Assembly (NCBI GenBank): GCA_002389675.1
Contig: DGQF01000055.1
Span: 134,257 to 198,256, forward strand
Direction: 5' to 3'
Source: Gammaproteobacteria bacterium UBA4421
GTDB lineage: Bacteria; Pseudomonadota; Gammaproteobacteria; Pseudomonadales; Azotimanducaceae
Length of the DNA stretch: 64,000 nt
Both the position numbers and the translations under genes were made by a program. The notes beneath the pieces were generated by a model that did no database searches, had not been told where the DNA came from, and saw only the letters and a program-made list of their open reading frames with translations. Positions 26,207 to 30,829 of the stretch are shown here, in pieces. Position 1 is the first letter of the stretch. Each line of letters starts with the position of its first letter.

Positions 26207-27538
26207 TTGGCCGGCTCACCATTACCGGTGGATGACCTTCCCAATGGCCGATTGAAGCGCAAGGGTGGATTGCGTGCGAAGTTAGTGCGCGTTTACGTGC
26301 TGCAAGTGTCATTTATCAGTATTGCTGCGTTGATTGGATTGTCGATGACCTACTTAATTGTGGTGAACGTATTATCCCGAGAGGCGTTGGTAAAGGAATC
26401 GGTTTATTTTTGGGATAAATTAGCGAACAACCCAGAGCACCAGCTGCCTGATGTGGCAAATATGGTGGGTTATTTGTCGGTGGGGGAAGATTTGTCGGCT
26501 GTCCCAGTGAAATTGCGTAGTCTGCGCGATGGTTTTGGCCGTGCGGAGCAAGCGCAGGGCGCACCGCTGGTATTTGTTAGCCGCCGCGATGACAAAACAC
26601 TCTACCTTGTATTGGCGGAAACGCGGATTGCAGATCTGGTGTTCTACTTTGGCCTAGCGCCGCTGGCCACGGTGCTGCTGGTGGTCTATGGCTTGTTTTT
26701 TGTGTCCTATCGCTTGTCGCATCAGGCAATTTCTCCGCTGTTGAATTTAGCGCAAACGTTGGAAGATTTTGACTTCAGGTCAAATCAGCCACTGGTGGTG
26801 CCTGTTACGCCAGAGGGGGTGGATCGCGAGACCGGGCTAATGGTCGAGGCGCTGCAAACCTTTGGATCTCGATTGGAACAGTTTATTGAGCGGGAACGAA
26901 CGTTTACCCGGGATGCTGGCCACGAATTGCGAACGCCTATTGCGGTCATGAAGGGGTCGCTGGATATCCTTGAAAATCGGACCGATCGCCCGATTCAGGA
27001 CGTCAAAGTGCATGCGCGCATGCGTCGGGTGGTCAAAGACATGGAAACGTTGCTAGAGACGCTTTTGCTTTTAGCGCGTGAGGAAGACGTTTATGCGAGC
27101 GATAACAGTACCAATGTCAATCAGGTCATCGCTGAGGAAGTGGAATTGCTGCAAGAATTTGCGGAGCTTCAGGGCAATCGCATTGATTGGATTGAGGGTG
27201 CGGATGCGCACTGCGCTGCCAAGCCGCGAGTGCTGGGAATCATTATGAGTAACCTTATCCGCAATGCGCTGACCTACACCCAAAACGGTACGGTGACAAT
27301 CTGTGTCGAGCGTGAGTTTGTTGCGGTCAGGGATACCGGTATCGGTATGAGTGATGATGAGATGGACAAGATATTCACGGCTTTTTATCGTAGCGAGGCG
27401 GCCAAGTCGTCTGGTCATGGCCAGGGTTTGGGGCTAGCGTTGGTGCGACGTCTGGTTCAGCAGCTGGGCTGGACAGTTGAGGTGAGTAGTCAAGAGCAGG
27501 TCGGAACCGAATTCAAGGTTTGGTTTGACGCGCCCTAA
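26207..27538 (+). CDS. Sensor histidine kinase
   Basis: The 443-residue protein has two membrane helices (about 31-54 and 146-168) bounding a periplasmic sensor of about 90 residues, a HAMP-like segment, the H-box FTRDAGHELRTPIAVMKG with phospho-accepting His 239, an N-box NLIRNALTYTQNG, and ATP-binding DTGIGM and GQGLGLALV. The periplasmic part contains MVGYLSVGEDLSAVP and matches no domain I recognise. It faces its probable partner regulator tail-to-tail with a 4-nt overlap (27535-27538), an uncommon arrangement. The start is TTG 26207. Confidence 0.9.
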   Translation: MAGSPLPVDDLPNGRLKRKGGLRAKLVRVYVLQVSFISIAALIGLSMTYLIVVNVLSREALVKESVYFWDKLANNPEHQLPDVANMVGYLSVGEDLSAVPVKLRSLRDGFGRAEQAQGAPLVFVSRRDDKTLYLVLAETRIADLVFYFGLAPLATVLLVVYGLFFVSYRLSHQAISPLLNLAQTLEDFDFRSNQPLVVPVTPEGVDRETGLMVEALQTFGSRLEQFIERERTFTRDAGHELRTPIAVMKGSLDILENRTDRPIQDVKVHARMRRVVKDMETLLETLLLLAREEDVYASDNSTNVNQVIAEEVELLQEFAELQGNRIDWIEGADAHCAAKPRVLGIIMSNLIRNALTYTQNGTVTICVEREFVAVRDTGIGMSDDEMDKIFTAFYRSEAAKSSGHGQGLGLALVRRLVQQLGWTVEVSSQEQVGTEFKVWFDAP

Positions 27539-28236
27539 TCGCCTGGTTCGTCGTCTACCATGCAGAAACCACGCCCCGGTAAAGTAGCAATGAGCGGACG
27601 ATCGAACGGTTTGTCCACAATGCGCCTGAGATTGTAAACGTGACTGCGCAAAGCATCAGAATCGGGCACCTCGTCCCCCCAGATTTCCTTTTCGAGTTCT
27701 CTTCGCGAGACTACCGCGGGTGATTTGCGCATCAAAACCCGCAGAATTTCAAACGAACGTGGGGAGAGGCTAAGCCGTTTGCCAGCACGAATGGCGATCT
27801 CCCGTTCGGTGTCCAGTTGGAGGTCCCCCACTGTAAAAATGGTTTCTGATACGTCTCCTTTATCTCTGCGAATGAGAGCCTCAATACGCACCGCCAATTC
27901 CGGTAACTCAAACGGCTTCACCAGATAATCGTCGGCGCCGACCTCAAAGCCCTGAATCTTGTCGCTGAGTTGATCTCTGGCGGTGAGCATGATGATCGGT
28001 GTGCTTTTACGGGCTTCCTTGCGCAGATGCCTGCACACTTCCAGACCGTCGGCGCCAGGTAAGTTGATGTCCAAGACAATGACGTCAAAGTCTTCTTCTG
28101 TGGCAAATTGTATCGCGCTGATGCCGTCGGCGGCGTAATCCACGGTGTAGCCTTGGGATTCTAAGAATAAACCTACGGTCTCCGCGAGGTCTCGATGATC
28201 TTCGACGAGAAGTATGGTTCTGGAGCCTTGTTTCAT
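27535..28236 (-). CDS. OmpR/PhoB-family response regulator
   Basis: The 233-residue protein has a receiver domain (acidic Glu 12 and Asp 13, phospho-acceptor Asp 56 in VIVLDINLPG, Thr 85, Lys 107 in LVKPF) and a C-terminal winged helix (RLSLSPRSFEILRVLMRK ... DALRSHVYNLRRIVDKP). It probably works with the histidine kinase encoded convergently beside it. Its target genes are unknown. It diverges from the aminotransferase gene at 28401, a possible target. Confidence 0.92.
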   Translation of the reverse strand: MKQGSRTILLVEDHRDLAETVGLFLESQGYTVDYAADGISAIQFATEEDFDVIVLDINLPGADGLEVCRHLRKEARKSTPIIMLTARDQLSDKIQGFEVGADDYLVKPFELPELAVRIEALIRRDKGDVSETIFTVGDLQLDTEREIAIRAGKRLSLSPRSFEILRVLMRKSPAVVSRRELEKEIWGDEVPDSDALRSHVYNLRRIVDKPFDRPLIATLPGRGFCMVDDEPGD

Positions 28237-28400: not shown

Positions 28401-29756
28401 GTGGGATACGTTAGCGTGGCGGAACTTTTTCACGAAACAGGTGCATCGGGATGGGCAAATTCTTCAGCATATTGGATGCCCTATACCGCGCGTAATGGCT
28501 TTAATCGCGATCCGCGAATGATAAAGGGTGCGCGAGGTTGTTATTTTATCAGTGATGACGACCGACAGATTTTTGACGGATTATCAGGGCTTTGGTGCTG
28601 TGGATTTGGGCATAATCGTGCGGAGATCGCCGAGGCCGTTAACCGTCAGCTACAGGTTCTAGATTATAGCCCGGCGTTTCAATATGGTCACCCAAGCGTA
28701 TTTAAACTCGCTGATCGTTTGACGCAAATTGCGCCTGCCTCTTTAAACCACGTGTTTTTCACCAATTCGGGCTCTGAGAGTGCGGATACGTCGTTAAAAC
28801 TAGCTCGGGCTTACTGGCGTATGCGTGGGCAGCCCAGCAAAACGCGCTATATTGGCCGTATCAAGGGCTACCATGGTGTCAACTTTGCGGGTACCAGTCT
28901 GGGTGGCATTGGTGCAAACAGAAGATTGTTCGGCCACCTTGCTGATGCCGATCACCTGCCCCATACGTTGCGTGTTGAAGATGCATTCACTCGAGGGCAG
29001 CCGCAAGGTGGTGAAGAATTGGCCGACCATCTCGAGCAGCTGGTAATGCTGCATGATGCCTCAAATATCGCTGCTGTGATTGTGGAACCGATGTCAGGCT
29101 CGGCAGGTGTTATTGTGCCGCCATCAGCCTATCTGGCGCGGTTGCGGGCGCTGTGTGACAAACACGATATTTTGCTGATTTTTGATGAGGTGATCACGGG
29201 TTTTGCGCGCACCGGTGGGGCTTTTGGTGCAGACACGTTTGGCGTCATACCGGATATGATGAATTTGGCTAAGGCGCTCACCAATGGGGTTATTCCGATG
29301 GGCGCAGTTCTGACAAACGATGAAATTTACGACGCATTTGTTGATGAACAACAGCCCGACCATATGATCGGCATGCCGCACGGCTATACCTATTCCGGTC
29401 ATCCTGTTGCTTGTGCGGCGGCGCTTGCGGCTTTGGATATTTTTGAGCAAGACGACATGGTCGGTAGAGCGCAGCGTATGGCGCCATTGTTGGAAGAAAC
29501 CCTTCATCAGTTGAAAGGACTGCCGTATATCACTGATATACGCAATGTGGGTATGGCTGGCGCACTGCAGATTGCGCCACGCGATGCTGATCCGCTGGTG
29601 AGGCCTTATGAGTTGGGTGTGCGTTGTTTTGCCGAGGGGCTATATGTGCGCTGGGGAGGGGACACGTTACAGTTCGCGCCTCCGTTGACATGTACGTCAA
29701 ATGATCTGGAAAGGATGGGTGATGTACTCAAAAAAGTATTTCGCACGCTCAAATGA
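28401..29756 (+). CDS. Class III (omega) aminotransferase
   Basis: The 451-residue PLP enzyme has FFTNSGSESADTSLKLAR (PLP phosphate loop), GYHGVNFAGTSLGG, VEPMSGSAGVIVPP, LIFDEVITGFARTG (Asp that binds the PLP ring nitrogen) and NLAKALTNGVIPMGAV (Schiff-base Lys). It is closest to beta-alanine:pyruvate and related omega-amino acid transaminases; the substrate is inferred only in general terms. The start is GTG 28401; GTG 28416 is an alternative. A hairpin at 29814-29848 follows and may end this transcript too. Confidence 0.88.
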   Translation: MGYVSVAELFHETGASGWANSSAYWMPYTARNGFNRDPRMIKGARGCYFISDDDRQIFDGLSGLWCCGFGHNRAEIAEAVNRQLQVLDYSPAFQYGHPSVFKLADRLTQIAPASLNHVFFTNSGSESADTSLKLARAYWRMRGQPSKTRYIGRIKGYHGVNFAGTSLGGIGANRRLFGHLADADHLPHTLRVEDAFTRGQPQGGEELADHLEQLVMLHDASNIAAVIVEPMSGSAGVIVPPSAYLARLRALCDKHDILLIFDEVITGFARTGGAFGADTFGVIPDMMNLAKALTNGVIPMGAVLTNDEIYDAFVDEQQPDHMIGMPHGYTYSGHPVACAAALAALDIFEQDDMVGRAQRMAPLLEETLHQLKGLPYITDIRNVGMAGALQIAPRDADPLVRPYELGVRCFAEGLYVRWGGDTLQFAPPLTCTSNDLERMGDVLKKVFRTLK

Positions 29757-29813
29757 GTTTTGGAGAAATAAGCGGGCTGTGCTGCAGTTTGAACTTCGGG
29801 TAAAACAACAAAA

Positions 29814-29848
29814 AGGGCCGGTAGATGACTCCCGTCAAAACCGACCCT
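29814..29848 (-). terminator. Intrinsic terminator of a minus-strand mini-transcript (possibly bidirectional)
   Basis: On the minus strand AGGGTCGGT pairs with ACCGGCCCT (9 bp, one G-U wobble) around a 17-nt loop and is followed by TTTTTGTTGTTTT, a classical intrinsic terminator. On the + strand the same stem is followed by CTCTTTTG and could end the aminotransferase transcript. Confidence 0.75.
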
Positions 29849-29854
29849 CTTTTG

Positions 29855-29877
29855 CTCGTTGTTGGACCAACTACGAG
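29855..29877 (-). promoter_or_regulatory. Second hairpin between the mini-ORF and the terminator
   Basis: CTCGTTGTTGG (29855-29865) and CCAACTACGAG (29867-29877) pair at 10 of 11 positions. The mini-ORF stop codon lies inside one arm, so a ribosome finishing the peptide would cover part of the stem. That is how translation-coupled attenuators are built. Confidence 0.5.
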
Positions 29878-29909
29878 AGCTGACCCCCGGAACTCGCAAT
29901 AAATATCAT
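29871..29909 (-). CDS. Twelve-codon mini-ORF with an extreme Shine-Dalgarno
   Basis: ATG 29907-29909 starts MIFIASSGGQLS, with TAG at 29871. Just upstream on the minus strand TAAGGAGGTGATC (29923 to 29911) is fully complementary to the conserved 3' end of 16S rRNA, with AGGAGG 6 nt from the ATG. A hairpin and an intrinsic terminator follow. No gene is read from this strand downstream (only the antisense of the aminotransferase 3' end), so this is a free-standing mini-transcript rather than a normal leader. It could encode a small peptide or be a small RNA. I know of no family. Confidence 0.45.
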   Translation of the reverse strand: MIFIASSGGQLS

Positions 29910-30052
29910 TGATCACCTCCTTATATTATCTCTTGTTGATGTTTGAGTATGGCGTTCTGCGTATATTTTGCAATCGTCGCCGTTGAATAATTGTCTAACC
30001 TTTGGCAATTGCGTAACGTGCAGCACCAAATGAGTTAAAAACAGGAGACATC

Positions 30053-30829
30053 ATGCAATTGAAAGGCAAAGTTGCGGCGATTACAGGCGGCACTGCGGGC
30101 ATCGGTTTAGGCATTGCCAAAGCGTTTTTAGCCGAAGGAGCGCGTGTGACACTGATGGCGAGAAATCAGACCAAAGCAGAGCAAGTGCTGGAGGGTTTAG
30201 ATGCTGGTGACCGCTGTGTCTTTTTCCCCGGTGACGCGATGTCGCAAAGTGATGTCGAAAGTTTCATCGATCAAACGGTTAGCCATTGTGGCCGAATTGA
30301 TATTTTGGTGAACAATGCCGGCGGCGCGAGCGATTTGCAGCCGCTGGTTGATTTGTCAGATCAAGCGTTTGATGAAGCCATGAAATGGAATGTGTACTCC
30401 ACCTTTTGGGCAATGCGTCGAGCATTACCTCCGATGCTGGCGCAGTCTTGGGGTAGGATCATTAATATTTCGTCCACCGAGGGTAAGGTCGGCAAGCCCG
30501 TGTTTACCGCTTACTCCACGGCCAAACATGCGGTTAACGGCATGACTAAAGCAGTTGCTAAGGAGGTTGGTGCCCAAGGGGTTACCGTTAATGCCATCTG
30601 CCCCGGATTAGTGATTACCGATATCATTAAGGCCACCGGCCCGGCAACCGCAGAATCTATGGGGATGAGTTTTGAGGAAATGGTTGCTCTATTCTCACAG
30701 GAGTCGGCCATCAAGCGCCCCAATACGGTCGAAGAAGTTGCCGCAATGGCAGTTTTGTTGGCGTCGGATGCCGGTGCTGGCATCACGGGCAGTGCGCTCA
30801 GTGTAGATGGTGGCACAGCACCTTACTGA
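30053..30829 (+). CDS. SDR family oxidoreductase
   Basis: The 258-residue classical short-chain dehydrogenase has TGGTAGIG (NAD(P) loop), DILVNNAGGA, the catalytic Ser in INISSTEG, Y-S-T-A-K (Tyr and Lys), and a C-terminal SVDGGTAPY. The substrate is unknown; context with methylmalonyl-CoA mutase suggests 3-hydroxyacyl chemistry. It starts at ATG 30053 behind AGGAGA. Confidence 0.85.
   Translation: MQLKGKVAAITGGTAGIGLGIAKAFLAEGARVTLMARNQTKAEQVLEGLDAGDRCVFFPGDAMSQSDVESFIDQTVSHCGRIDILVNNAGGASDLQPLVDLSDQAFDEAMKWNVYSTFWAMRRALPPMLAQSWGRIINISSTEGKVGKPVFTAYSTAKHAVNGMTKAVAKEVGAQGVTVNAICPGLVITDIIKATGPATAESMGMSFEEMVALFSQESAIKRPNTVEEVAAMAVLLASDAGAGITGSALSVDGGTAPY

Follow-up and report, generated by a model that had tools for sequence, protein, structure and literature searches.

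A compact unit on the minus strand of the window (the whole stretch of 64,000 nucleotides analysed, from contig DGQF01000055.1 of Gammaproteobacteria bacterium UBA4421) is best read as an autonomous, single-copy small RNA gene with an inferred length of approximately 130 nt. The observation itself, at positions 29802-29973, was confirmed to be real and beyond chance; in order, the strand carries a sigma70-like promoter, TAAGGAGGTGATC, an ATG codon, 12 codons, a TAG codon, an imperfect hairpin and a terminator (Table 1). The RNA is proposed to be translated, and its conserved job would be to engage ribosomes, by catching and holding them, over the production of any one peptide; a probability of about 0.4 is given to this reading. 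Its basis is a set of sequence features: a promoter, a short leader, a Shine-Dalgarno (SD) sequence in sole copy, a GTG- or ATG-initiated open reading frame (ORF) of constrained length and drifting sequence, a second SD-like motif anchored to the stop codon, a terminator in this genus, and persistence of the unit amid changing neighbours.

Table 1. Features of the minus-strand unit, in positions of the window.
Feature	Positions	Strand	Details
Sigma70-type promoter	29946-29973	-	-35 TTGCAA (29968-29973), spacer 16 nt, -10 CATACT (29946-29951)
Full-length SD AAGGAGGTGAT	29912-29922	-	16S 3' end matched over 13 nt (29911-29923)
12-codon ORF MIFIASSGGQLS	29871-29909	-	Stop TAG at 29871-29873
Second SD-like motif GGGGG	29884-29888	-	10 nt 5' of the stop codon; GAGGG in most congeners
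Imperfect hairpin, stop codon in 5' arm	29855-29877	-	Seen directly; one A-A mismatch
Intrinsic terminator	29810-29848	-	Stem GGGUCGGU/ACCGGCCC, then T-run

The preliminary description of this DNA had claimed a full anti-SD match, a 12-codon ORF ending inside a hairpin arm and a terminator, and each was found as claimed: TAAGGAGGTGATC is the complement of 29911-29923, with the ATG (29909-29907) 6 nt from GGAGG; the frame reads ATG ATA TTT ATT GCG AGT TCC GGG GGT CAG CTC TCG TAG, its stop lying in the hairpin arm; and both stem and T-run are present, the terminator being kept within the genus. It was also correct that no gene is read downstream on this strand, no credible one being met before an ORF at 27535-28236 that is response-regulator-like as judged by eye from its sequence. 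The promoter and terminator of the unit were recognised through alignment with relatives; the former, with 8 of 12 consensus bases, was not listed by a generic consensus scan, nor was the latter by a generic scan with a loop limit of 8.

Occurrence in the genus and family

Of 40 genomes in the genus, 36 were matched by a 171-base query at E ≤ 1 and 34 (the own genome included) at E ≤ 1.4e-6. As read by eye, the promoter, SD, ORF and stop are common to all 30 genus loci inspected, and an evident terminator to all of them except L032. Conservation in close relatives had been set beforehand as a refutation test, and it was passed by the SD, ORF and terminator while the hairpin upstream of the latter (29855-29877) failed it. 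Among the named relatives with the element, from 33 stretches of a GTDB contig scan, are HTCC2089 and K189A-clade records, and the window probably belongs to this group. Across the family, a covariance model of 22 congeners found matches in 64 of 206 genomes at E ≤ 0.1, and a pattern of SD, start codon and TCT in 76 of 206, at one place each (reversed control, 1/206); the own genome is outside these 76 because TTT replaces TCT. A sequence model built on the 5' part of 43 sequences extended the element to 103 of the 206 genomes and 21 of the 37 genera at E ≤ 0.01, again at one place per genome except for G030, with a second, weak one. Some of the searches, namely the GTDB contig scan, the family pattern and an order-wide pattern, themselves favoured records with the SD motif.

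The same 5'-part model gave no match in 103 of the 206 family genomes, of which 61 belong to the 128 better assemblies; 16 of the 37 genera had no match at all, among them g34 (17 genomes) and g35 (15); within genus g4, 6 of 18 genomes have the element. The element is thus patchy across the family, and therefore either dispensable or unrecognised where absent; the genera and genomes concerned may have lost it, or it may have diverged beyond the model. The order-wide pattern, applied to 390 genomes (some from the family itself), matched in 17, with nothing convincing outside the family; the matches there were rejected since, on reading, they resembled coding or unrelated sequence. A class-wide model yielded no convincing match in 369 genomes, the 15 weak matches at E ≤ 0.05 in the 368 other genomes, judged by their number, being about the chance expectation (approximately 18), and no viral contig matched the element.

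That the unit is an ordinary intergenic stretch with look-alike signals is barely credible. Each element alone is a short motif, and generic scanning does not pick out the unit; against this reading stands its conservation in 34 of 40 congeners and in half of the family genomes. An origin from 16S rRNA or tRNA was likewise rejected, as Rfam identified only two tRNAs in the window; it gave no gathering-score match at the element in the window or in 10 relative loci, and nothing at E ≤ 5 in 29600-30100. No description of the element was seen among the papers listed by a literature search limited to PMC.

The counts given below refer to a set of 99 records, which are related by descent and hence not independent, from the 103 matched family genomes with a usable element; left out were G106 (removed by a filter, its element being visible), G006 (masked bases), G201 (contig end) and G191 (not fetched).

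The open reading frame and its two SD-like motifs

The SD motif AAGGAGGTGAT is kept in 97 of the 99 records, and in 98 of the 99 the longest run identical to the 16S complement measures 11-13 nt; the sequence model, being tolerant of changes in the SD, found one AATGAGGTGAT and one GAGGAGGTGAT. The distance from the end of the best promoter match to the SD is 21-25 nt in 93 of 96 distinct upstream regions. The 11-nt SD motif is present in a single copy in the own assembly of 3.07 Mb (reversed control, 0), so the 16S 3' end must be absent from the sequence searched. Seven single-contig relatives have 3-7 copies each (reversed control, 0-2), and seven non-element copies were read in G187, G189 and G204; four look like coding sequence, one of them (L217) with a TTG 4 nt on that opens a 38-codon frame, and the other three, from their appearance by eye, we take to be 16S 3' ends. 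A further motif of the 5' leader, GTGTCGGGCAACA, located approximately 10-25 nt before the SD (L097, L109, L135, L136, L138, L140 and others), recurs across genera; the window and many congeners have lost it.

The ORF comprises 10-12 codons in 92 records, 13-15 in six and 25 in one (g27, doubtful), and it starts with GTG in 86 and ATG in 13. The distance from the start to the last sense codon is 27-33 nt in 92 of the 99 records, and the second codon is often ATA or TTA. Known type I toxins have approximately 18 or more residues, and the 10-15 residues encoded in 98 of 99 records fall short of this. The peptide of the window, MIFIASSGGQLS, is a diverged version with ATG for the usual GTG, the commoner forms of the genus being MISIASFEGQLT, MLSIASFRGHLA and MLSIASFEGQPS.

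It is rather unlikely that the element is a micropeptide gene, in which the peptide would be the trans-acting product and the strong SD would just boost its yield. Among 20 distinct 12-codon ORFs of the genus, pN/pS was 0.38 in frame vs 1.58 and 0.82 in the other frames, a value reached by 5 of 300 column permutations, and Ser and Glu-Gly recur at similar positions of the peptide; selection on the peptide within the genus suggests that its sequence matters there. Against this, pN/pS was 0.59-1.26 in seven of eight other small sets defined by genus and length (the eighth, 0.15, being the three ORFs of g33), 64 different peptides are encoded in the 99 records, and the recurrent Glu-Gly is the coding outcome of GAGGG(N). 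With a low value in the genus and mostly higher ones in the other sets, the constraint on the peptide is weak, and local as far as tested.

What recurs within the frame is a second SD-like motif. In 61 of 70 distinct ORFs (g27 excluded), the best 7-mer partner of the anti-SD has its end 5-10 nt upstream of the stop codon, all 61 at 7-10 nt, while shuffles of codons or bases (200 rounds each) gave the 5-10 nt placement in 21% of cases on average and 33% at most. The mean best anti-SD energy is -7.2 in the ORFs vs -5.5 and -4.7 in the codon and base shuffles, respectively, and the position of the motif spreads by 2.04 nt relative to the stop and by 3.26 nt relative to the start. The 5-10 nt placement is seen in at least half of the ORFs for 19 of 20 genera, the exception being g28 (2 of 5 ORFs). 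When strength is required too (E ≤ -5.5), 59 of the 70 distinct ORFs qualify vs 27 of 286 control ORFs (mechanically called, of at least 150 codons, from the window and fetched loci); this strong, stop-anchored second motif is a new feature. Models R1 and R2 include or touch its region in the genus, where they may have exerted a slight selection; the family pattern left the region untouched. The G-rich motif is partly complementary to downstream sequence, and it could be kept as a hairpin arm instead.

A start codon lies near the stop in 38 of the 99 records, 31 of 33 in the genus and 7 of 66 elsewhere. Most congeners (e.g., L006, L016, L018) have TTG or GTG directly after the stop TAG, with frames varying from 1 to 30 codons. 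A second cistron at the stop was rejected as a family rule, given its rarity outside the genus and the unconserved length of its frame within it.

RNA structure and genomic neighbourhood

The transcript with its terminator has a fold z of -4.0, and none of 200 shuffles was as stable. The window RNA up to 45 nt past the stop, and hence without most of the terminator, was no better than shuffles (z +0.9), with 7.5 stop-enclosing pairs in this segment vs 7.2 in the null. RNAalifold on 22 congeners returned 21 pairs, five of which have changes on both sides; four of these are in the terminator stem, and the fifth, elsewhere, is from one sequence. Hairpin 29855-29877 is missing from this consensus; it is present in the window, as the preliminary description had it, but with the z score and the null-level pairing its conservation is left unsupported. 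A hairpin followed by U4 within 90 nt of the stop was found in 32 of 33 genus records vs 5 of 145 control ORFs, and in 45 of the 99 records overall; with just 13 of 66 outside the genus, the RNA of other genera may end differently. On the plus strand, the terminator stem is followed by TCTTTT. With T-rich sequence following it on both strands, the stem (29810-29853) may be bidirectional, and so may double as the terminator of the convergent aminotransferase-like gene (28401-29756, plus strand).

Pairing that encloses the stop codon is enriched family-wide on average and is not universal. A duplex test of the stop region gave p ≤ 0.05 for 24 of 86; minimum free energy folds contained at least four stop-enclosing pairs in 57 of 85, with a mean of 7.3 vs 4.9 expected and p ≤ 0.05 in 19 of 85. 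The own genus presented no average excess (4 of 25 at p ≤ 0.05). A stop codon in a hairpin loop, however striking by eye, gained only moderate support from these tests as a family-wide rule; it was therefore rejected as such and kept as a secondary one. Pairing of the SD with the end of the ORF in the window RNA was considered by eye and set aside. In L103 (g7) and L137 (g6), the hairpin formed around the stop codon resembles a terminator, and a ribosome at the stop might thus block termination.

These structural data bear on whether the element is a base-pairing small RNA with a dual function, in which the sequence at and beyond the stop would pair with mRNAs and translation would tune this pairing. 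It looks like a structured, stand-alone transcription unit, with a terminator in the genus, and C-rich stretches past the stop are visible by eye in many records; the features relevant to such a function that appear conserved are the putative promoter, the ORF and, in the genus, the predicted terminator. The sequence around and after the stop is, by eye, almost wholly different between genera, and so no shared seed is evident; this reading is considered unlikely.

The neighbours of the element form lineage-specific blocks (protein names were assigned by eye from the sequences). A putative SDR and a methylmalonyl-CoA mutase lie near it in some members of the genus, a putative VOC protein in g2 and g17, and a CaiB-type protein in g25. 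An LLM-type oxidoreductase gene lies downstream on the same strand in g4, g28, g36 and g37, at 157-311 nt in 11 of the 15 loci read; of the other four, L200 has it 914 nt off, and in L160, L201 and L203 the stretch showed no such gene. At the 11 loci with the 157-311 nt distance (L113, L145, L147, L149-L151, L155, L166, L191, L192 and L202), the start of this oxidoreductase reads MKL(A/S/C)VEFPS, and ten copies compared are 59-87% identical. The own genome has no match to the gene at E ≤ 1e-40, and G047, G048, G103 and G020 carry a copy (64-71% identical) away from the RNA. Among 105 loci (some genomes counted twice), 57 have their next downstream ORF on the opposite strand and 42 have it on the strand of the element, while six have none.

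The recurrent LLM gene is the main argument for a cis-acting leader, or attenuator, of a downstream gene that was orphaned in some lineages. Its varying distance and presence, its absence from the own genome at E ≤ 1e-40 and its occurrence elsewhere in others led to rejection of the element as a leader of this gene; the opposite-strand neighbour at more than half of the loci leaves no consistent candidate for a cis-regulated gene, and by eye no codon run is shared by the 64 peptides that could act as the regulatory codons of a leader peptide. A cis leader of any kind is accordingly very unlikely, and the translated leader with attenuation of the preliminary description found no support as a cis mechanism, the downstream genes varying by lineage. 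As the neighbours turn over and the RNA stays, it persists as an independent unit.

Proposed ribosome holding and known systems

The preliminary description had also listed a tiny peptide, a dual-function small RNA and a ribosome decoy, and the readings that survive are contained in this shortlist. For the preferred reading, the engagement of ribosomes, the following sequence of events is envisaged. The SD of 11-13 nt would load 30S subunits very strongly. With a ribosome at the stop codon, the second motif would be at the normal SD spacing to the P site (the 7-mer and the P codon being approximately 4-7 nt apart), which would allow the anti-SD to grip it; this grip may delay release or let the subunit rejoin. 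The stretch from the start to the last sense codon has roughly the length of one ribosome footprint, which would leave room to park one or two ribosomes. Their occupancy would protect the RNA and decide the folding of the region around the stop, with an output in trans that may be either ribosome sequestration or the exposure of an RNA region. In its strictest form, which is possible but less likely than not, the element would be a chromosomal ribosome-parking RNA, the full anti-SD match catching the 30S subunit and the stop-anchored second SD holding the finishing ribosome, each RNA thus storing one or two ribosomes. The 103 family genomes that lack a match count against holding.

SgrS/SgrT and Spot 42/SpfP are dual-function small RNAs, and those of this kind known to us keep a pairing region or the protein; the element, unlike them, keeps the ORF length and two SD-like sites, and neither a pairing region nor the peptide is evidently fixed family-wide. 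Lambda bar-type minigenes are very short, SD-driven ORFs as well, with ATA or TTA as a common second codon in the element too, but they have 2-3 codons rather than 10-15 and act via peptidyl-tRNA drop-off. Bicistronic design devices employ a short ORF with an internal ribosome-binding site (RBS) beside its stop, feeding a second gene. Engineered upstream "nonsense" ORFs have an internal strong RBS adjoining the stop (PMC13255528). The element resembles both in its short ORF with an internal RBS by the stop; the engineered ORFs feed a second gene, as do the devices, whereas the element has a start near its stop in only 38 of 99 records.

VcdRP is a dual-function small RNA (PMC8672173) and, like the element, SgrS/SgrT and Spot 42/SpfP, a small stand-alone RNA with an ORF. 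In Sinorhizobium meliloti, the trp attenuator RNA rnTrpL and its 14-residue leader peptide, peTrpL, are both trans-acting; rnTrpL is a product of attenuation ahead of trpE(G), and it is leaderless, its 5' end being the ATG (PMC7298713). Like the element, rnTrpL is a short, terminated RNA with a mini-ORF of comparable length, and the action of both products away from their locus is counted as a likeness to the trans action proposed here; the element differs in having a full-length SD and in lacking a fixed downstream gene or a shared codon run.

Translated small RNAs are a kind already known, as in a survey of coding small RNAs (PMC5521070), and mini-ORFs within small RNAs are familiar; in the present element, the peptide drifts from genus to genus, but the ORF length, the full SD and the SD-like grip ahead of the stop are retained. 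It thereby argues, in a way open to testing, that being translated can itself be what a free-standing gene is for. It also supplies a rule for searches elsewhere, namely stand-alone mini-ORFs in which a strong SD-like motif precedes the stop by 5-10 nt. If true, a ribosome-parking RNA would be a sequence-encoded counterpart of hibernation factors.
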